A stretch of 64,000 nucleotides of DNA from Seleniivibrio woodruffii (GTDB lineage: Bacteria > Chrysiogenota > Deferribacteres > Deferribacterales > Geovibrionaceae): positions 310,001-374,000 of the forward strand of contig NZ_SMGG01000004.1 in NCBI RefSeq assembly GCF_004339245.1, given 5' to 3'. The notes below the pieces were generated by a model, which saw nothing but the letters and a program-made list of their open reading frames with translations, was not told where the DNA came from and ran no database searches. Numbering within the stretch: position 1 is the stretch's first letter; every line of letters starts with the position of its first letter. Shown piece by piece: positions 6,968 through 42,845 of this stretch. Both the position numbers and the translations under genes were made by a program.

Positions 6968-7915
6968 CTAGTTTAGTATTATATCCAGTATGGCCTCTGC
7001 GAAATCGTCGCTGTCGTTGAGGCTTTCTATGCGGACAATGTTCAGACCGCTCTTTTCGTATTCGGGGATGTACTGCTCGTCCAGCTCGATAAGGGTCTCT
7101 ATGTGGTCTGAAACGAAAGAGATAGGCACAACGATGACGTTGTCCACCTTCTCCTGTGCCAGCCTGACAAGCTCCTGATCGGTGTAGGGGGATACCCATT
7201 TGACAGGCCCCGTGCGGCTCTGGTATGCCAGTCCGGATGACCTCGGATTGGTCTTTGATATGAGATAATTCGCCTGCTCCCTGATATGCATGGTATATTC
7301 GTCACCCTTTTTCACGGTGTATTCCGGCAGGGAGTGCGCTGAGAACAGAATATGGCACTCGGACAGAGGTTTGCCAAGCTTTTCAGCCGCTTTGAAAATC
7401 CTGTCGGTTATGCATTTGTTATATTTTTCGTTCATGTGCCAGAATTTTTTAATGACCATGTTTCCGCGTGGCTTAGGAAGCGGGTTAAATCTGTCGAAGC
7501 ATGCGCCTGTGGTGGTGTATGAATACTGGGGATACATGGTTGTGACGTAGATATTTTCAAACTCACGCCCTTCCAGTTCCTTCAGCGAGTCTTTTATGTA
7601 CGGATGGTAGTAGCACATGCCGATGGAGGTCTCAAGCTCTCTGCCTGTGATGCGCTGATATTCGGGGCGTATCTTCTCAAGTAGTGACTTTAAATGAGGA
7701 AGCTGGGGGGATTGCCCGCCCAGCTTCATATATTCCGGTGCTACCTTTTTGGAGCGTTTTTTCGCTATTTTTTTCGCAATGAAATTCTGCAGCATCCCGC
7801 CCACATGAAAGTCTATTATCGTGCGGTCGGAAAAGAGGTTATAAAGAAACTCCTCTATGCCCTCAATGCTGTCCGGCCCGCCCATATACATTATATAGAG
7901 CAGGTCTTTCTTCAT
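6968..7915 (-). CDS. hemH: Ferrochelatase
   Basis: 315 residues, the usual bacterial length. HemH inserts Fe2+ into the porphyrin ring, the last step of classical heme synthesis. The catalytic His194 lies in LFSAHSLP, and Glu273 is in VSDHIETLIELDEQY. The YQSRTGPVKWVSPYTD segment is also a family hallmark. No Cys-rich [2Fe-2S] tail is present. It overlaps hemE by 4 bases, so decarboxylation and chelation enzymes are made together. The frame cannot tell proto- from coproporphyrin as substrate; a Gram-negative setting favours protoporphyrin IX. Confidence 0.94.
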   Translation of the reverse strand: MKKDLLYIMYMGGPDSIEGIEEFLYNLFSDRTIIDFHVGGMLQNFIAKKIAKKRSKKVAPEYMKLGGQSPQLPHLKSLLEKIRPEYQRITGRELETSIGMCYYHPYIKDSLKELEGREFENIYVTTMYPQYSYTTTGACFDRFNPLPKPRGNMVIKKFWHMNEKYNKCITDRIFKAAEKLGKPLSECHILFSAHSLPEYTVKKGDEYTMHIREQANYLISKTNPRSSGLAYQSRTGPVKWVSPYTDQELVRLAQEKVDNVIVVPISFVSDHIETLIELDEQYIPEYEKSGLNIVRIESLNDSDDFAEAILDIILN

Positions 7916-34736: not shown

Positions 34737-35396
34737 GTGGAGGAGCTTTCCTATATAGGGTTTCTTACCCTTGGCTTCTCCGTGGGGTTTGGGCACTGTC
34801 TGGCAATGTGCCATCCGTTTGTTCTGTATATCTCAGGCCGTTTCGTTAAAGGCAAAAAGGGCTATGTGCCCCTGTTTCTTCCTCATCTCAAATATAATCT
34901 CGGCAGAATAACAACTTACAGCATTCTTGGACTTATAGCCGGACTTGCAGGAAGTGTTGTACAGGTTTTCGGCAACCTTATGGGCATACAGAAGGCGGCG
35001 GCGGTCATTGCCGGAGTATTTCTGGTGCTTTACGGTGTCTTTGCTTTTTCCGGTTATAATTTCATGAACAAGCTGGAGAGCAGGATAGGGCGGGTTGATG
35101 TGGGCGAACAGCTTAAGCGGTTTCAGCCGAAAACCCCTTATCTGACAGGCGTTGTTCTGGGACTGCTTCCCTGCGGCCCTCTTTACGGGGTCATAATTGC
35201 CTCTGCATCCTCCGCAGATGCTCTCAGAGGGCTTCTCTCAATGATGTTTTACGGCATAGGTACGATGGGAGCAATGCTCACAGCGGCAATATTCGGTAAC
35301 TTCCTCATGGCTCGCCGTGGCTTTTTCAATGCACTTTCACTGGTTATAATGATTGTTATGGGAGTCTTTTTCATCTGGTCGGGATTCAGAATGTAG
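34737..35396 (+). CDS. TauE/SafE-type membrane protein linked to cbb3 assembly
   Basis: 219 residues with about six membrane helices. It belongs to the sulfite-exporter/cytochrome-biogenesis transmembrane group: FGHCLAMCHPF near the N-terminus and LPCGPLYGVIIAS near residue 145 carry the paired-Cys motifs. Such genes commonly stand beside ccoGHIS and may handle copper or thiol chemistry. The start is GTG at 34737 behind AAGGA. It ends one base before the stop of the convergent ccoI. Confidence 0.82.
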   Translation: MEELSYIGFLTLGFSVGFGHCLAMCHPFVLYISGRFVKGKKGYVPLFLPHLKYNLGRITTYSILGLIAGLAGSVVQVFGNLMGIQKAAAVIAGVFLVLYGVFAFSGYNFMNKLESRIGRVDVGEQLKRFQPKTPYLTGVVLGLLPCGPLYGVIIASASSADALRGLLSMMFYGIGTMGAMLTAAIFGNFLMARRGFFNALSLVIMIVMGVFFIWSGFRM

Positions 35397-37811
35397 CTAT
35401 TTTCCTATGCGCAGGGAATTGAACACCACCAGAAGACTGCTGATGCTCATAAGTGCGGCACTGGTCACAGGGTGTATCATCCCCGCCATTGCCAGAGGAA
35501 CCATGATTATATTATACGAAAATGCCCAGAACAGGTTTTCTTTTATTACCCGCAATGTTTTAACCGATGTTTGATGCAGTGTGGTCAGAAGCCCAAGCTC
35601 ATCACGCATAAGCACAATGTCTGAGCTTTCAATGGCTATATCCGTTCCCTGACCGATGGCAACTCCCACGTCTGCCGTTGTGAGGGCAGGGGCATCGTTT
35701 ATACCGTCTCCCACCATAACGCATATTTTGTTATCTTTCTGATAGTGCTTAACTATATCCGCTTTTTGAAAAGGTGTGACGTCTGATACGAACTCAAGAC
35801 CTTTTATGCCGAGCTTTTCCACCAGTTTTTCAGCCGCAGACCTGTTGTCGCCGGTTATTATGACAGCCTTAATGCCTTTTCCGCTCAGATATTTAAGAAC
35901 GTCTGCCGCACTCTCTTTTATGCTGTCGGAAAGGGCTATCATTCCCGCATATTTGCCGTCAACCGCAACGCATGCCACAGTATGACCGGTATCCGGCACC
36001 TGAGGTAATGTCACGCCGCTTTCCGTCAGGAAAACTTTTGTGCCTACCATTACACTTTGACCGTCAACAACCCCGGTGACGCCTTTCCCAGGTATCTCGG
36101 AGAAGTCGGAAACAGACAGAAAATCATCCTGATAAGCTGAAGTTATGGCTTTTGCTATAAGGTGCGAGGAGTTTCTTTCCAAAGATGCCGCCAGAGCATG
36201 AAGACGGGTTTTGTCCTCTGCTATGATGTCCTCTATTTTTAGTGCGCCCTGAGTTATTGTGCCTGTCTTGTCGAACAGGAATACGTCAGCCTTGCTGTAT
36301 CTCTCTATGATATCGCCGGATTTTGCAACTGCGCCCAGTCTGGTTATTTTTGAGGTGGCTATCAGTATTGCCAGAGGTGTTGCCAGTCCCAGTGCACAGG
36401 GGCAGGCGACCACAAGAACCGCCACAGCGGTCATTACAGACGCAAGTATTTGACCTGTGTAGATATACCATCCGATGAAAGTTGCGGCGGCAACTGCCAG
36501 AATGAAAGGCACGAACCATTCCACCACCTTGTCGGCTACGTTCTGTATCGATGCTTTGGACGACTGGGCATCCTCAACAGCCTGAACAATCTTTGAAAGG
36601 GTAGTTGTGGCTCCGACCTGTTCAACCTGAACAATTATACTGCCGTTGATGTTTATTGTTCCTGCGAAAACCTTGTCTCCGGCGGTTTTGTATTTCGGGT
36701 TTGCTTCTCCGGTGAGCATGGCTTCGTTTATCTCCGTACCGCCGCTGACTATTATTCCGTCAGCCGGAACGGAATCTCCCGGAAGAACTTCAAGAAAATT
36801 CCCTGAACGAACCTGCTTAACATGAACCATGACCGATTCATAGGGCTTTTCGGGCTGATAGTTTTCAATCAGACGCACCTGAGTGGGCTGGTATGTGAGC
36901 AGTTTTGACACCGCATTGGATGTTCTGACCTTTGCGCCCGCCTCAATGTAGCGTCCCAGAAGGATAAGTGCGATGATGTTGGCAGTGGTGTCGAAATATA
37001 TCTCTTTGTCCATGAAAAGGGCGAAGATGCTGTAGACATAGGCTGTGAACGACCCCAGAAAAATGAGGGTGTCCATGGTGGTGTGGCCTCTGCGGATCGC
37101 CTGAAAAGAGCTTTTTATGAACGGCCAGCCGGAATAGAACATTACAGGGGTGCATAGAGCCCATGCCGTGTACTCAAAGAAGTCCTTGAGTCCGGCAGTG
37201 ATCCCCTGAAAATAGCCCGCATAGAGGGCTACGGTATATATCATCAGCTGCATTGTGAAGAATGCGGCTATGGAAAATCTGTAGAAATAGTCCTTTTTCT
37301 CGTTTTCGTAGATGGTCTCTGTGGATGAACTGCTGATGGGAAGAGGGCAATAGCCGATGGATGTTATCCTGTCAATTATCTCGCCGAGGGTTATTTTTCC
37401 TTTTGTCCAGCGGATACGGGCTTTGTGGGTGGCGTAGTTCAGGCGAACGTACTCCACCCCTTCAGCCTTTGAAATATAGGTTTCTATAAGCCAGATACAT
37501 GCGGCGCACCGCACGCCGCTGAGGGCAATATCGACCTCGTAGCCTGTTTCCGTCTCCTTTATAGTGTCGAAGAAAAGATCTTCGGACACTCTGGCAGCGG
37601 ATACGGCTCCGGCCTCCCATTCACCCTCACGTTTAATGTAAAACCTGCTGAGCCCTTCGGATTGCAGTATCTTATAAGCTCCTGCACAGCCGTGGCAGCA
37701 GAACCAGACATCATGCCCGTCAATACGCTCCTGTATTGCCTGATTTCTGTTAACCTCAGAAAGACAATGGGCGCATTGAATTTTTTTGTCATTTGTCGTC
37801 GTCATCATCAT
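35397..37811 (-). CDS. ccoI: Copper-exporting P-type ATPase CcoI/FixI
   Basis: 804 residues. N-terminal Cys-rich metal domain (CAHCLSEVN...CCHGCAGAY), HMA domain with CAAC, about eight membrane helices with the CPC ion site (VACPCALGLATPLA), phosphorylation site DKTGTIT and hinge GDGINDAPAL. This P1B type moves Cu+ to the periplasm to build the CuB site of cbb3 oxidase rather than to detoxify copper. It overlaps ccoS by 23 bases. Several Met codons cluster at the start (MMM), and the ribosome site is weak. Confidence 0.94.
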   Translation of the reverse strand: MMMTTTNDKKIQCAHCLSEVNRNQAIQERIDGHDVWFCCHGCAGAYKILQSEGLSRFYIKREGEWEAGAVSAARVSEDLFFDTIKETETGYEVDIALSGVRCAACIWLIETYISKAEGVEYVRLNYATHKARIRWTKGKITLGEIIDRITSIGYCPLPISSSSTETIYENEKKDYFYRFSIAAFFTMQLMIYTVALYAGYFQGITAGLKDFFEYTAWALCTPVMFYSGWPFIKSSFQAIRRGHTTMDTLIFLGSFTAYVYSIFALFMDKEIYFDTTANIIALILLGRYIEAGAKVRTSNAVSKLLTYQPTQVRLIENYQPEKPYESVMVHVKQVRSGNFLEVLPGDSVPADGIIVSGGTEINEAMLTGEANPKYKTAGDKVFAGTININGSIIVQVEQVGATTTLSKIVQAVEDAQSSKASIQNVADKVVEWFVPFILAVAAATFIGWYIYTGQILASVMTAVAVLVVACPCALGLATPLAILIATSKITRLGAVAKSGDIIERYSKADVFLFDKTGTITQGALKIEDIIAEDKTRLHALAASLERNSSHLIAKAITSAYQDDFLSVSDFSEIPGKGVTGVVDGQSVMVGTKVFLTESGVTLPQVPDTGHTVACVAVDGKYAGMIALSDSIKESAADVLKYLSGKGIKAVIITGDNRSAAEKLVEKLGIKGLEFVSDVTPFQKADIVKHYQKDNKICVMVGDGINDAPALTTADVGVAIGQGTDIAIESSDIVLMRDELGLLTTLHQTSVKTLRVIKENLFWAFSYNIIMVPLAMAGMIHPVTSAALMSISSLLVVFNSLRIGK

Positions 37812-37938
37812 CCATCATGCGGTATTTCGGGCCTTCCATGTCTTCAAATTCTCCCGTTTTGCCCGCCCACAGAAAAATGAGCAGAACTATCACTCCCAGA
37901 ATCAGGGAGACGGGAATCATGATGTAGAGCGCACCCAT
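37789..37938 (-). CDS. ccoS: cbb3 oxidase maturation protein CcoS
   Basis: 49 residues, below the size most gene finders keep. One membrane helix (PVSLILGVIVLLIFLWA), then GKTGEFEDMEGPKYRMMDDDD. The aromatic-small-E-F-D/E-D-x-E-G-P-x-Y-R-M/I pattern is diagnostic of CcoS, which is needed for heme insertion into CcoN. Its ATG shares a base with the stop of the microprotein before it (TGATG), and its end overlaps ccoI. Confidence 0.92.
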   Translation of the reverse strand: MGALYIMIPVSLILGVIVLLIFLWAGKTGEFEDMEGPKYRMMDDDDDDK

Positions 37939-38024
37939 CAGTTAGCGTATTTAAGAGCAAAAAGAAGGGGAATGCCTATCATCGTTATGAGGGATACGAT
38001 CATTACAATTGTTCCGAGTTTCAT
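37938..38024 (-). CDS. 28-residue membrane microprotein in the cco assembly operon
   Basis: A frame of 28 codons has a textbook AAGGAGG site 8 bases before its ATG. The product starts MKLGTIVMIVSLITMIGIPLL and ends LKYAN: one hydrophobic helix with a short basic end. It lies 18 bases after fixH and its stop overlaps the ccoS start, so it is coupled to both. No known Cco subunit matches it; CcoQ and CcoS are both present separately. A helper of assembly is a reasonable guess. Confidence 0.72.
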   Translation of the reverse strand: MKLGTIVMIVSLITMIGIPLLFALKYAN

Positions 38025-38042
38025 AATAAAATCCTCCTTACG

Positions 38043-38480
38043 TCACTGATTGATATAAAAGTTCTTTCTGAGAGCAACTTCGTCCGATGCTACTTTCGCA
38101 CGAAGCTCAAGAACATAATTGCCGTAACCGCTGGTGCTGAACTCAGCCTTATAGAGGCCGTTTGCGTCAGTCTGAGGAGCAAGTTCCGTCTGCTCCTGAT
38201 TGGATGCAGGTCTGCCCACTGTGAATCTTTCGGGCACAAGCTGAACTCTGCCCGCATTTGCCACTGCGAACTCAATGAAAACCTTGTCGCCGTTCTTCTG
38301 CGCTTTGATGTTTTCAAGGGCAAGTCCGGCATCCTTTATTATCTTTTCGCTCTTGTCATACTCCAGCCCGGTTTCATATGGGCTTTCGGTGATCTTGCCG
38401 TCGAAATACTTCACGCCGAGGTATATGCAGGGCGCAATGGTGAGCAGGGCAATAAAGATAATTATGAGAGATACTTTCAT
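38043..38480 (-). CDS. ccoH: cbb3 maturation protein FixH/CcoH
   Basis: 145 residues. One N-terminal membrane helix, then GVKYFDGKITESPYETGLEYDK, the FixH signature, and a periplasmic Ig-like domain. CcoH stays bound to the oxidase and is needed for stable assembly. It overlaps ccoG by 4 bases. Confidence 0.9.
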   Translation of the reverse strand: MKVSLIIIFIALLTIAPCIYLGVKYFDGKITESPYETGLEYDKSEKIIKDAGLALENIKAQKNGDKVFIEFAVANAGRVQLVPERFTVGRPASNQEQTELAPQTDANGLYKAEFSTSGYGNYVLELRAKVASDEVALRKNFYINQ

Positions 38481-39694
38481 TCAGTCACCTTTCTTTTCGC
38501 TTTTATGGGTCTGCGGAAACTGAACTCACTTTCGATGGGTTTCATCTCCGCATTATCCGATTTTGCCGACATTTTCAGAGACAATATGGGGAAATCTTCC
38601 AGTTCGTCCTCCTCAATGAAAAGGAACGCAGTGCGCTTGACTGTTTCCGCAGGCTTAACGCTGAAGGGCTTTTCGTATTGAAGCTCGTAATCGTCTGTGC
38701 CTTCCACGGAAATATCAAAAGTAAGTTCTTTATCGGAAATATTCTTTATTATCAGTTCATATGAGTTGATTATCCGGTCGTCCTTCTCTCTGGGCATAAA
38801 CTGCTGGTTGGGGAGCACCTGAAACTCGAAAGGTTTTGTGGTGGCAGCCATCCAGACGAAAATGGAGAGGAACACCAGTGTAACGATTCCGGTTATCAGC
38901 ACATTCACACGGAAAGGTTTTTTCTCTTTTTCGAATCCGTAAATGTAATGCACCAAACTGGGGTGCTCTTTTTTCTGCATTACCTTTGCGCAGGCTGTGA
39001 TGCATCTGCCGCAGTTTATACAGGCGGAAACAAGCCCTTTGCGGATATCAAGCCCCACGGGGCAGGTCTTTACACAGGCGTTGCATTTGATGCATCTGTC
39101 CGCTGTCGCAGGGTCGAATGCCACTATCAGCGTGTTCTTGTCGAACATGATCGACTGTAGCTTTGAATAGGGGCATACGGTGGTGCAGAATTTATAACGG
39201 ATGAGCACGAAGCTCAGGTAGGTTATGGCGGTTATGACTATGCAGAACCATGCAGTAACGGGGCTTAATGTCCCCGCCGCAAGGTCTCTGAAAAAGTCAT
39301 ACGGCGACACGAAGTAGAAAACTATTGTGACGCTTATCACTGTGCTGATCGCAAAAACAAGTATATGGCTTATGACCTTCTGAATGAGGGTCTGTTTTTT
39401 CCTGTCAAAGAACCACGTGAGGTTTATCATCACCGTGTGTGGGCAGAACCATCCGCACCATATGCGGCCGTAAAGCTGGGTAACGAGTATTCCGAGGAAA
39501 GTAATGAAAAATGTAAATATAAGTACGATAAAGAAATTTTCTATCCAGACGGATGTCCCGAAGAAAAAGAGACGAAGAGACGGTATGTCAAAACGCAGTG
39601 CACTCTGACCGTTTATCGTGATGAAAGGGAGAAGGATAAAAAGGGCAGTGTTGAAAAGCCTCACCGCCCATCTGTATCTTTGCAGATTAATCAT
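38477..39694 (-). CDS. ccoG: cbb3 accessory iron-sulfur protein CcoG/FixG
   Basis: 405 residues. About five membrane helices with WCGWFCPHTVMINLTW, a ferredoxin part with two [4Fe-4S] cysteine sets (CIKCNACVKTCP; CINCGRCITACAK), and a C-terminal periplasmic Ig-like domain. CcoG reduces Cu2+ for CcoI. ATG at 39694 is chosen over 39730 because the family starts near the first helix and GGAAG lies 6 bases before. It shares 8 bases with the ccoQ end (ATGATTAA), a sign of translational coupling. Confidence 0.93.
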   Translation of the reverse strand: MINLQRYRWAVRLFNTALFILLPFITINGQSALRFDIPSLRLFFFGTSVWIENFFIVLIFTFFITFLGILVTQLYGRIWCGWFCPHTVMINLTWFFDRKKQTLIQKVISHILVFAISTVISVTIVFYFVSPYDFFRDLAAGTLSPVTAWFCIVITAITYLSFVLIRYKFCTTVCPYSKLQSIMFDKNTLIVAFDPATADRCIKCNACVKTCPVGLDIRKGLVSACINCGRCITACAKVMQKKEHPSLVHYIYGFEKEKKPFRVNVLITGIVTLVFLSIFVWMAATTKPFEFQVLPNQQFMPREKDDRIINSYELIIKNISDKELTFDISVEGTDDYELQYEKPFSVKPAETVKRTAFLFIEEDELEDFPILSLKMSAKSDNAEMKPIESEFSFRRPIKAKRKVTE

Positions 39695-39833
39695 CGTCGT
39701 CTTCCAGCATTCTGTATTTTGCCTTCTCAACTTCGTCTTTTCTCTTTTTAGAGTAGTAATAGAAGATGATCACGGCGAAGATTGCTGTCAGTGAGAGACC
39801 GTAGAAAAGAAAAGAATAAGCGCTTCCAATCAT
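39687..39833 (-). CDS. ccoQ: CcoQ-like small subunit of cbb3 oxidase
   Basis: 48 residues. One membrane helix (about 10-27) is followed by YYYSKKRKDEVEKAKYRMLEDDDD. Size, topology, the K/R cluster after the helix and the acidic end agree with CcoQ/FixQ. The KYRML-acidic end is also strikingly like the end of CcoS here. AAGGAG precedes the ATG. It lies after a terminator-like hairpin and couples to ccoG. Confidence 0.8.
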   Translation of the reverse strand: MIGSAYSFLFYGLSLTAIFAVIIFYYYSKKRKDEVEKAKYRMLEDDDD

Positions 39834-39894: not shown

Positions 39895-40089
39895 TTACTT
39901 GGGCTGAGTCTGCATTGCCTCTTCAAGGGCTTTTTCCTGGGTCCAGCCTGTGAAGGCGGGTGTGTAGGAATATGTGTAATAGATACCGAACACTATAAGT
40001 CCGATGAAGAGTATCAGCCATCCGAGGGGAAGTGCATTTTCCGTGTCTTCCCTTGTGAATTCTTCAAAATTATCGAATTCCTCTTTCAT
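39895..40089 (-). CDS. Stand-alone FixP N-terminal domain (split CcoP)
   Basis: 64 residues. EDTENALPLGWLILFIGLIVFG is the helix region found at the N-terminus of CcoP/FixP, here without any heme-binding CxxCH. In most bacteria this segment is fused to two cytochrome c domains. The c-type domain that would belong to it is instead on the end of the neighbouring CcoO. It lies 15 bases after that gene. It probably anchors or packs the complex. Confidence 0.8.
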   Translation of the reverse strand: MKEEFDNFEEFTREDTENALPLGWLILFIGLIVFGIYYTYSYTPAFTGWTQEKALEEAMQTQPK

Positions 40090-40104
40090 GTCTGCACCTC
40101 CGTC

Positions 40105-40989
40105 TTATTTAAGGCTGTTGATGTATGCAACAACAGACCAGATCTTCTCTTTGCTCAGCTGTCCTGCGAAAGCGGGCATTGCGCCTTCAAGACCGTTTGC
40201 AAGGGTTATGAAGGTATCGGCATCAGCTGCGCCTGTTTTGGCATAGTCAGAGATGGAACCGCCGATGTTGCCCTCTGCGTTCTGACCGTGGCAGCCTGCG
40301 CATTCAGCTTTATAGATAGCCTGACCTGCGGCAACAGCTTCAGCTTTGCCGGCAAAGGGGTTTGCTGCTTCAACGTTTGCAGGGTCGTAAACAATAGCCT
40401 CTTTCTTGGCTACGGAAGTTCCGATGACCTGCATATAGGCTACCATAGCGTCAAGCTGGGTTGCTTTTGCCAGTGCCGCTTCATCTTCGGGAGTGTAGGG
40501 GAAGCCGAGGGCTTTCATTCCCGCCAGAGTGCCTTTAACGTTGACAGGCTTATTTGCCAGCCATGTGTATTTAGGCATGTTTGACTTGGGGAAGAACGCC
40601 TGAGGGTTCATAAAGTGCTGAACATGCCACTCGTCGGGATATTTTCCGCCGATTCTCGCAAGGTCGGGGCCTGTACGCTTTGAGCCCCAGAGGAAGGGTC
40701 TGTCATAGGCAAATTCGCCTGCTTTAGAGTATTCGCCATACCTGAGAACGTCGGCCTTGAGGGGACGAACTGTCTGGGTGTGGCAGTTTACGCAGCCTTC
40801 CGCCTGATAGATATCACGGCCTGCCAGTTGGAGAGCTGTGAAGGGCTGAAGGTTGTCTGTTTTAGGGTGCATTCCCGCTGTAAACATGGGAACGAATACC
40901 GTAACTATTGTACCGATAAGCACTGTTACCGCAGCAACAACTGCGAACAGGACGGCTTTGCTGTAAAGTGAGTTTTCGTGATTGCTCAT
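40105..40989 (-). CDS. ccoO: cbb3 oxidase subunit CcoO fused to a CcoP-like cytochrome c domain
   Basis: 294 residues. An N-terminal membrane helix (about 11-34) is followed by CcoO with heme site CVNCH at 66-70 (EGCVNCHTQTVRP) and MPKYTW with the axial Met. After a linker near 195-215 a second cytochrome c domain has CAGCH at 230-234 and GAMPAFAGQLS for the axial Met. Ordinary CcoO is about 200 residues with one heme. This is a fusion of CcoO with one CcoP-type domain, so the complex may carry fewer hemes than the usual CcoP adds. ccoN lies just upstream. Confidence 0.9.
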   Translation of the reverse strand: MSNHENSLYSKAVLFAVVAAVTVLIGTIVTVFVPMFTAGMHPKTDNLQPFTALQLAGRDIYQAEGCVNCHTQTVRPLKADVLRYGEYSKAGEFAYDRPFLWGSKRTGPDLARIGGKYPDEWHVQHFMNPQAFFPKSNMPKYTWLANKPVNVKGTLAGMKALGFPYTPEDEAALAKATQLDAMVAYMQVIGTSVAKKEAIVYDPANVEAANPFAGKAEAVAAGQAIYKAECAGCHGQNAEGNIGGSISDYAKTGAADADTFITLANGLEGAMPAFAGQLSKEKIWSVVAYINSLK

Positions 40990-41000
40990 CTTGTGCCTCC

Positions 41001-42401
41001 CTACGCTGCCTGTTTGGCAAGGTCGTTGCCTTTTTTGATTGTCATGAGTACGTTATAAACGAAGAACAGCATACCCACAACGAATATCACACCGGCAACG
41101 GTTCTCATCTGCCAGTAGGGGTAGTTGCGGACGAGGGTTTCCATAAAGGTGTACTGAAGAGAGCCGTCTGCGGCTGTCATCTTCCACATAGCACCCTGCT
41201 GAATACCTGTGATCCACATTGTTATAGAGAACATAAGCTGACCGACAAGAACGATCCAGAAGTGGATGTTTGCCAGTTTTTCGCTGTAGATCTCGGTTTT
41301 ATACATAGCGGGGATCATGTAGTACACTGATGCGCAGATAACCATTGTTACCCAGCCCATAGTACCCATGTGAACGTGTCCGGGAACCCAGTCTGTATAG
41401 TGGATCAGCGAGCTGATAACCCTGATACCCTGAGAGGGACCCTGAATGGTCTGAAGACCATAGAACGTTATACCCACGATGAAGAACTTTGTAAGATACT
41501 GAGTTCTCATCTTAGACCAGTCTCTGTCCACTGTGAAATAGCCGTTCACAACGGAACCCCACGACGGAGCGATGAGGAACAGAGTGAAGGCGATGCCCAG
41601 CGTCTGAATCCAGTCGGGCAGGGGAGTGTAAACAAGGTGGTGTGCGCCTGTCCAGAGATAAGCGAATATCAAAGACCAGAAGGAGATGATGGACAGTCTG
41701 TGGCTGTATATGGGCAGCCCGGTTGATTTGGGGAGGAAGTAGTAGAACATTGCCAGAATGGGCGTTGTGAAAAGGAAGCCCACGGCGTTGTGTCCGTACC
41801 ACCACTCAACGTTCGCACTGTTTACGCCTGCGAAAAGGTGATAAGACTTTGTAAGTGTTGCGGGAATTGCAAGGTTGTTCACTATGTAGAGAATGGCGAC
41901 CGTAATGATTGTCGCAATGATGTACCACAGGGATACATACATGTTTTTCTCTTTTCTGGTGAAAACGTTGCCGAGCACGTTAATTGCGAAAAGAACCCAG
42001 AGGATAACTATCGCAATGTCGATGGGCCACTCGAACTCCGCATATTCAAGAGACTGGTTCATACCTGCGAAGAGTGAAAGCGTAGCCAGAACCATGCCCA
42101 CGTTGAAGAGCCAGAGATGGAAACGTGCCAGTTTGGGCAGAACAAGCGGTTTTTTCGTCAGTCTCATAACGAGATAGTAGAAAATACCGAATTCCGCACC
42201 GATGCCCAGACCGTATGCCAGAACATTGACGTGAAGGGTTCTGAGTCTGCCGTATGAGAAATACTCACCAAAATTAAGGTCAGCATTCCAAAGCTGGGCA
42301 GAAATCAGAAGACCCATCACAAGACCAATAACACCCCAGAAGATGGCAGAGAGAACGAATCCCTGCACAGTCTTGTAGTCATAATGAAACTCTTGGTTCA
42401 T
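41001..42401 (-). CDS. ccoN: cbb3 cytochrome c oxidase catalytic subunit CcoN
   Basis: 466 residues with about twelve membrane helices. Heme-copper oxidase core of the C type: HVNVLAYG, WWYGHNAVGFLFTTP (CuB histidine region), HHLVYTPLPDW, and HYTDWVPGHVHMGTMGW near heme b3. It reduces O2 to water at high affinity. GGAGG precedes the ATG and lies within the end of the rrf2 gene, which is directly adjacent. Confidence 0.96.
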   Translation of the reverse strand: MNQEFHYDYKTVQGFVLSAIFWGVIGLVMGLLISAQLWNADLNFGEYFSYGRLRTLHVNVLAYGLGIGAEFGIFYYLVMRLTKKPLVLPKLARFHLWLFNVGMVLATLSLFAGMNQSLEYAEFEWPIDIAIVILWVLFAINVLGNVFTRKEKNMYVSLWYIIATIITVAILYIVNNLAIPATLTKSYHLFAGVNSANVEWWYGHNAVGFLFTTPILAMFYYFLPKSTGLPIYSHRLSIISFWSLIFAYLWTGAHHLVYTPLPDWIQTLGIAFTLFLIAPSWGSVVNGYFTVDRDWSKMRTQYLTKFFIVGITFYGLQTIQGPSQGIRVISSLIHYTDWVPGHVHMGTMGWVTMVICASVYYMIPAMYKTEIYSEKLANIHFWIVLVGQLMFSITMWITGIQQGAMWKMTAADGSLQYTFMETLVRNYPYWQMRTVAGVIFVVGMLFFVYNVLMTIKKGNDLAKQAA

Positions 42402-42845
42402 TCAGACCTCCTGCATTGATTTGGATTTTGTAAAAAGTTCGTTACCGTTAAAAAGGAACTCTTTTATCTTAGCCCTTTTCAGCCGTTCCTCGATTTCTCG
42501 CTGAATGTCGCCGAAAAGTCTGTTGATTTTGCAGATGGGCAGAAGCTGGCAGGCGGCGTGATCTGATGTGCAGGCGTTCACTTTTCCTGTGAACCCCATG
42601 CAGGACAGAATGTCGAACATGCTCGCCTCGGGTGTGGATTCGCTGATGGTGAGGCCGCCGTCTTTGCCTGTTTTGGTGACTATGAAGCCGCCGGATTTAA
42701 GTTTGTTGATTATTTTGACAACGATAGGGCGGGAGAGATAAAGGGATTTGCAGATCTCGTCTGTTTTAACCTGTCTGCCAACGGTCGCCAGGAACACAAT
42801 TATGCGTATGGCGTAGTCTTCTTCACGCAGTATAAACGAATCCAA
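42402..42845 (-). CDS. Rrf2-family regulator with cysteine cluster
   Basis: 147 residues. An N-terminal winged helix (ILREEDYAIRIIVFL...LSRPIVVKIINKLKSGG) is followed by cysteines at CMGFTGKVNACTSDHAACQLLPIC, the pattern that binds an Fe-S cluster in Rrf2 regulators such as IscR, NsrR or RsrR. It starts with TTG (behind GAGG at 7 bases) and abuts ccoN. It probably senses O2, NO or Fe-S state and sets cco expression and its own; a target site was not identified. Confidence 0.88.
   Translation of the reverse strand: MDSFILREEDYAIRIIVFLATVGRQVKTDEICKSLYLSRPIVVKIINKLKSGGFIVTKTGKDGGLTISESTPEASMFDILSCMGFTGKVNACTSDHAACQLLPICKINRLFGDIQREIEERLKRAKIKEFLFNGNELFTKSKSMQEV

Follow-up and report, generated by a model that had tools for sequence, protein, structure and literature searches.

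The cbb3 oxidase is a high-affinity oxygen-consuming enzyme, and terminal oxidases as a whole are rich in small one-helix microproteins. To our knowledge, little is understood of how copper and haem enter the cbb3 oxidase, and neither CcoS nor CcoH has a settled role. Passages of PMC10433244 and PMC8267372 describe CcoM, with 36 aa, as a subunit of the Pseudomonas stutzeri cbb3 oxidase, and the latter source adds that in some Pseudomonas it is needed for stability and not for activity. Campylobacter jejuni, as treated in PMC8267372, has CcoX and CcoY, and the deletion of cj1485c, which encodes 33 residues with one helix, lowers oxidase activity. CioY, of 34 aa, is presented in parts of PMC11955535 as a small subunit of a bd-type oxidase, and a section of PMC7876108 tentatively places the CcoH helix beside helix 9 of CcoN in a Rhodobacter supercomplex.

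Here we describe a microprotein gene of 28 aa with one predicted transmembrane helix, located between ccoH and ccoS of Seleniivibrio woodruffii (phylum Deferribacterota; genome of 2.9 Mb). Its product, MKLGTIVMIVSLITMIGIPLLFALKYAN, is encoded at 37938..38024 on the minus strand (read from 38024 to 37938) of the window, that is, the whole stretch of 64,000 nucleotides that was analysed, and its identification draws on the list of open reading frames, its orthologues, purifying selection and the conservation of one helix face. As CcoM is described in PMC10433244 and PMC8267372, both are single-helix microproteins of a cbb3 oxidase; CcoM, however, is longer and known from the purified complex. 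The 33-aa CcoY (Cj1485) of PMC8267372 also has a single central helix and a gene in the cco cluster near ccoH, but according to the same description that gene has ccoX and ccoZ as its neighbours and is found upstream of ccoH, not between ccoH and ccoS. CydX and CioY, as covered in PMC11955535, are likewise conserved one-helix microproteins of oxidase operons, although the bd-type oxidases are another enzyme family and our microprotein has no Pfam or NCBIfam match to such families. CcoH and CcoS, finally, are single-helix assembly proteins of the same operon; CcoH differs in the domain that follows its helix and CcoS in its conserved acidic tail, both of which the microprotein lacks, and it shows helix homology to neither.

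The cco operon and the microprotein gene

The operon lies on the minus strand. It begins with a regulator-like ORF (42402..42845), putatively Rrf2-type, followed by ccoN (41001..42401; phmmer match to the cbb3 CcoN chain 3mk7_A, 7e-136), ccoO fused to a cytochrome c domain (40105..40989; Pfam FixO 2.9e-69 and Cytochrome_CBB3 5e-18; NCBIfam NF011054), a separate 64-aa CcoP N-terminal (FixP_N) protein (39895..40089; Pfam PF14715 4.5e-6) and ccoQ (FixQ; 39687..39833; Pfam PF05545 3e-7). Next come ccoG (38477..39730; NCBIfam TIGR02745 6.7e-73, with 246 bits against a cut-off of 317), whose start is uncertain (TTG listed), ccoH (FixH; 38043..38480; Pfam PF05751 1.5e-8), the microprotein gene, ccoS (FixS; 37789..37938; Pfam PF03597 4.6e-19; NCBIfam ccoS) and a ccoI-type copper P-type ATPase gene (35397..37811; Pfam E1-E2_ATPase and HMA; NCBIfam copper-translocating P-type ATPase). 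The first-pass annotation had considered CcoQ and CcoS to be already accounted for, and the FixQ, FixS and FixH matches do fall in distinct genes.

Several features of the surroundings deserve mention. The arrangement at 39895..40989 (minus strand), in which CcoO has a cytochrome c domain fused to its C-terminus and the membrane anchor of CcoP is a protein of its own, recurs at most loci of the phylum. The regulator-like ORF heads the operon in the loci of families f1 to f4 and in G001, and none was found at the f7 loci. A gene for a DsbD_2-type membrane protein, presumably SafE-like, is convergent with ccoI (34737..35396, plus strand) and occupies the same place in most f1 to f4 loci. Several f7 genomes carry an extra ORF of about 158-226 aa between ccoS and ccoI (L120, 7195..7671; L121, 7198..7674; L124, 7184..7771; and L127, a minus-strand locus counted from the other end, oriented coordinates 7115..7795); the one in L121 weakly matches CcoI (6e-4) and is perhaps a detached metal-binding domain.

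The microprotein frame starts with an ATG according to the ORF list of the window, 18 nt after the ccoH stop, and an AAGGAGG ribosome binding site (38033..38039, minus strand) lies 8 nt 5' of this ATG, with a duplex energy of -12.1 kcal/mol with the 16S 3' end. Its TGA stop has its last base in common with the ccoS ATG, giving a one-base overlap (TGATG). The site, the length, the single hydrophobic stretch and the overlap had all been claimed in the first-pass annotation and were recovered here. The site is strong in nearly all of the 23 microprotein copies that we found (median -11.4, range -7.4 to -17.3). Within the window it groups with those of ccoN (-11.5), ccoOP (-11.8) and the separate CcoP N-terminal protein (-13.2), while ccoG (-2.9), ccoS (0.0) and ccoI (-2.3) form a weak group; the medians across genomes for ccoN, ccoOP, ccoPn and ccoQ use the best ATG within the first 50 codons and are biased in favour of these genes. 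The carriers' ccoS is almost devoid of a ribosome site of its own (median -1.6, with one of the 23 ccoS starts, in G032, misplaced by the search pattern, and many ccoI starts uncertain). The ccoS site is likewise weak in the f7 genomes, which have no microprotein, so this weakness is general and the microprotein is not its cause.

Distribution in Deferribacterota and beyond

A protein search (E 1e-3 or better) found the microprotein in 23 of 50 Deferribacterota genomes, and a profile search returned the identical 23, all at E 8e-12 or better, with nothing else below 0.009. The first-pass annotation had proposed looking for the frame between ccoH and ccoS in relatives, and there it is conserved: all 23 copies lie directly 5' of ccoS, and 22 lie directly 3' of ccoH, with a gap of 3-22 nt. 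From the microprotein stop to the ccoS start there are -4 to +4 nt in 22 of the 23 copies and 18 nt in G029. CcoS is present in 38 of the 50 genomes, 23 of which have the microprotein; none of the 12 genomes that lack ccoS has it. The 15 remaining ccoS-containing genomes belong to families f7 (11), f9 (2) and f10 (2), and 14 of them, all except G005, were inspected at the locus. In the f7 genomes and in G001, ccoH ends no more than about 10 nt from where ccoS begins, so that the microprotein would not fit between them, and in G003 and G004, where it is also absent, ccoS lies 3' of ccoI. Absence in 15 of 38 genomes with ccoS indicates that the microprotein is no general need of cbb3 oxidases.

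Two carriers have unusual operons. G032 keeps the microprotein although no ccoG was detected in its operon. The split operon of G029 offers a natural test of which cco genes stay together: its cco genes are found on three contigs (L125, 5454..8103; L131, 605..1018; L132, 3675..6271), one group comprising ccoN, ccoOP and the CcoP N-terminal protein, another ccoH alone upstream of an unrelated gene, and the third a separate microprotein-ccoS-ccoI group headed by the microprotein and flanked by unrelated genes.

A CcoI tree of 32 rows implies two changes and places f6, whose members are carriers, outside a group of f7 non-carriers and the other carriers. With the warning that long branches may mislead, this topology favours an origin of the microprotein before f6 split from the rest, followed by loss in f7. 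The CcoN tree also implies two changes, but it places the long-branched outgroup G001 among the carriers and was set aside.

The microprotein was absent from the outgroups. Weak unlinked matches elsewhere were rejected, the best of them (E 0.009, in G016) being a frame with a stop and the others, many of which fall within longer frames, having E values no lower than 0.016. A scan of genome contigs with the pattern M[KR]xGT[IV][VI]MI gave 49 matches, of which 8 were confirmed; every one of these 8 came from a Deferribacterota genus or a Deferribacteraceae bin. Plasmids gave no match. Because this pattern misses many true copies even within Deferribacterota, the absence outside the phylum is weakly supported, and we can say with corresponding reserve that the microprotein has so far been seen only in Deferribacterota.

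Sequence constraint and family membership

The microprotein frame is a real gene that is constrained as a protein. In seven chosen pairs we observed 41 non-synonymous changes, compared with 89.7 +- 4.3 expected from randomly placed substitutions, and none of 2000 shuffles reached a count as low. Pooled pN/pS for the genus is 0.14; its family gives 0.28, and three further families give 0.14, 0.17 and 0.37. The low count relative to the shuffles, together with these ratios, shows that selection acts on the amino-acid sequence. The mean pairwise identity of the microprotein is 64%, compared with 59% for the CcoS helix, 42% for the CcoH helix and 33% for the whole CcoH, over 21 of the 23 copies (G030 and G031 were dropped since the CcoH search pattern missed them).

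The copies are 26-28 residues long, and their 19 distinct sequences share seven invariant residues: M1, G4, T5, M8, M15, P19 and L20. There is one hydrophobic stretch, with a maximum 19-residue Kyte-Doolittle mean of 2.68; position 2 is K or R in all 23 copies, and acidic residues occur in none. Column conservation is periodic at 100 degrees per residue (p = 0.0036), and a second test, scanning from 95 to 105 degrees, gave p = 0.0024. Thus, the helix has one conserved face, the pattern expected of a helix packed against another protein. By the same test, the periodicity of the CcoS helix is weaker (p = 0.013), and the CcoH helix shows none (p = 0.47).

Neither Pfam nor NCBIfam has a convincing match to the microprotein. 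Weak matches (DUF7550 0.032, Ycf9 0.041, CorA 0.1, YoaJ 0.1, PsbZ 0.13) were taken as chance because such scores are typical of short hydrophobic helices, that of DUF7550 being 13.4 bits against a cut-off of 27. Regarding the single-helix proteins of the operon, none of 14 microprotein members matches FixS (PF03597) or ccoS at E 10; there is no match to the FixH/CcoH model (PF05751), and the microprotein has only 28 aa with no domain after the helix; the FixQ/CcoQ model (PF05545) does not match either, CcoQ being a separate gene. No PDB chain matched at E 10, a search with little power for 28 residues, in a set that includes 3mk7 and 5djq through their CcoN, their CcoM chain being unconfirmed there. 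Among the titles and abstracts that were searched, none concerned a gene situated between ccoH and ccoS in this phylum. With under 50 aa, one hydrophobic helix and conservation with the oxidase operon, the microprotein has the features of the single-helix accessory microproteins of terminal oxidases, which are a kind and not a family. So far, then, it appears to be a new family of a known kind, unlisted in Pfam and NCBIfam and part of the cbb3 oxidase module.

Possible roles in the cbb3 oxidase

Our best reading, by analogy, is that the microprotein may work like CcoM, CcoY or CydX, with no homology to them implied. More specifically, we put at about even chances that it is an accessory microprotein with one helix, which serves the cbb3 oxidase and docks by a single face, the CcoS/CcoI step being the most likely place. 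With a strong ribosome site of its own, it would probably be produced at a high rate, and the TGATG overlap, together with the lack of a ribosome site at ccoS, suggests that the ribosomes that finish it may restart on ccoS. The microprotein would probably be inserted as one helix with its N-terminus inside, given the K or R that every copy has at position 2, and its conserved face (G4, M8, S11, M15, P19) could then dock onto a second helix in the membrane. As its partner, the CcoS/CcoI step of copper delivery and maturation, or a CcoN intermediate acted on there, seems most likely, and by docking the microprotein may stabilise a maturation intermediate in copper assembly. The microprotein-ccoS-ccoI group of G029 points to CcoS and CcoI as partners, a linkage to these two genes rather than to the whole operon that is seen in one draft genome.

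The same helix could also belong to a permanent small subunit of the mature oxidase, CcoM-like, with one helix on CcoN or CcoP that stabilises the complex; we regard this as possible, at somewhat under even chances. In ribosome-site strength the microprotein matches the structural subunits and not ccoG, ccoS and ccoI, as would be expected of a stoichiometric subunit at least as much as of an assembly factor; a single conserved face agrees with the subunit reading too, as do the small extra subunits described for cbb3 and bd oxidases in passages of PMC8267372 and PMC11955535. Yet the gene sits among assembly genes and does not adjoin ccoNOQP, in G029, where the operon is scattered, it has remained beside ccoS-ccoI, no PDB chain matched (though so short a query has little power), and the strong site may instead serve to drive ccoS by coupling. 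Another explanation is a translated leader that would mainly couple ccoS translation to the upstream genes and whose peptide would be of little import in itself. The weak ccoS site speaks for it, as does the close spacing of the microprotein stop and the ccoS start (-4 to +4 nt in 22 of 23 copies). We nevertheless consider it improbable: the amino acids are constrained along the 26-28 codons, seven residues being invariant, conservation is periodic by helix face, ccoS directly follows ccoH in the f7 operons, and the distance in G029 is 18 nt.

Even less probable is that the CcoH or CcoS helix was duplicated and truncated, the copy capping its parent or competing with it. The MK start resembles that of CcoH and S11-L12 are in register with CcoS, but this likeness by eye did not survive the comparison with column-shuffled microprotein profiles, which scored as well in 163 of 400 cases against CcoS and in 260 of 400 against CcoH, and homology to either helix was rejected. 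A further reading, in which the helix would be a copper relay that takes Cu(I) from the CcoI exporter and passes it within the membrane to CcoS or CcoN, is suggested by the invariant thioethers M8 and M15, seven residues apart on the one conserved face (M1 is a further invariant thioether, trivially so as the start residue). We hold this copper relay to be a long shot. If true, it would be a lineage-specific answer to Cu-B loading in cbb3 oxidases and the smallest copper-handling membrane protein known to us.

The assembly-partner and permanent-subunit readings are not mutually exclusive, and the microprotein may be an assembly factor, a permanent subunit or both. The first-pass view, that the assembly operon has an additional component which its small size hides from usual annotation, agrees with these results, yet that component is absent from the cco operons of f7 and the outgroups. 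Strict conservation in the relatives that carry it suggests that the microprotein is a real and overlooked helper of the cbb3 oxidase. Conserved, with seven invariant residues, and coupled to ccoS, it occurs in Deferribacterota genera with cultured members, such as Denitrovibrio, Seleniivibrio and Calditerrivibrio, and is thus a small and testable target; it also indicates that the oxidase operons of non-model phyla still conceal genes below the size limits of annotation.
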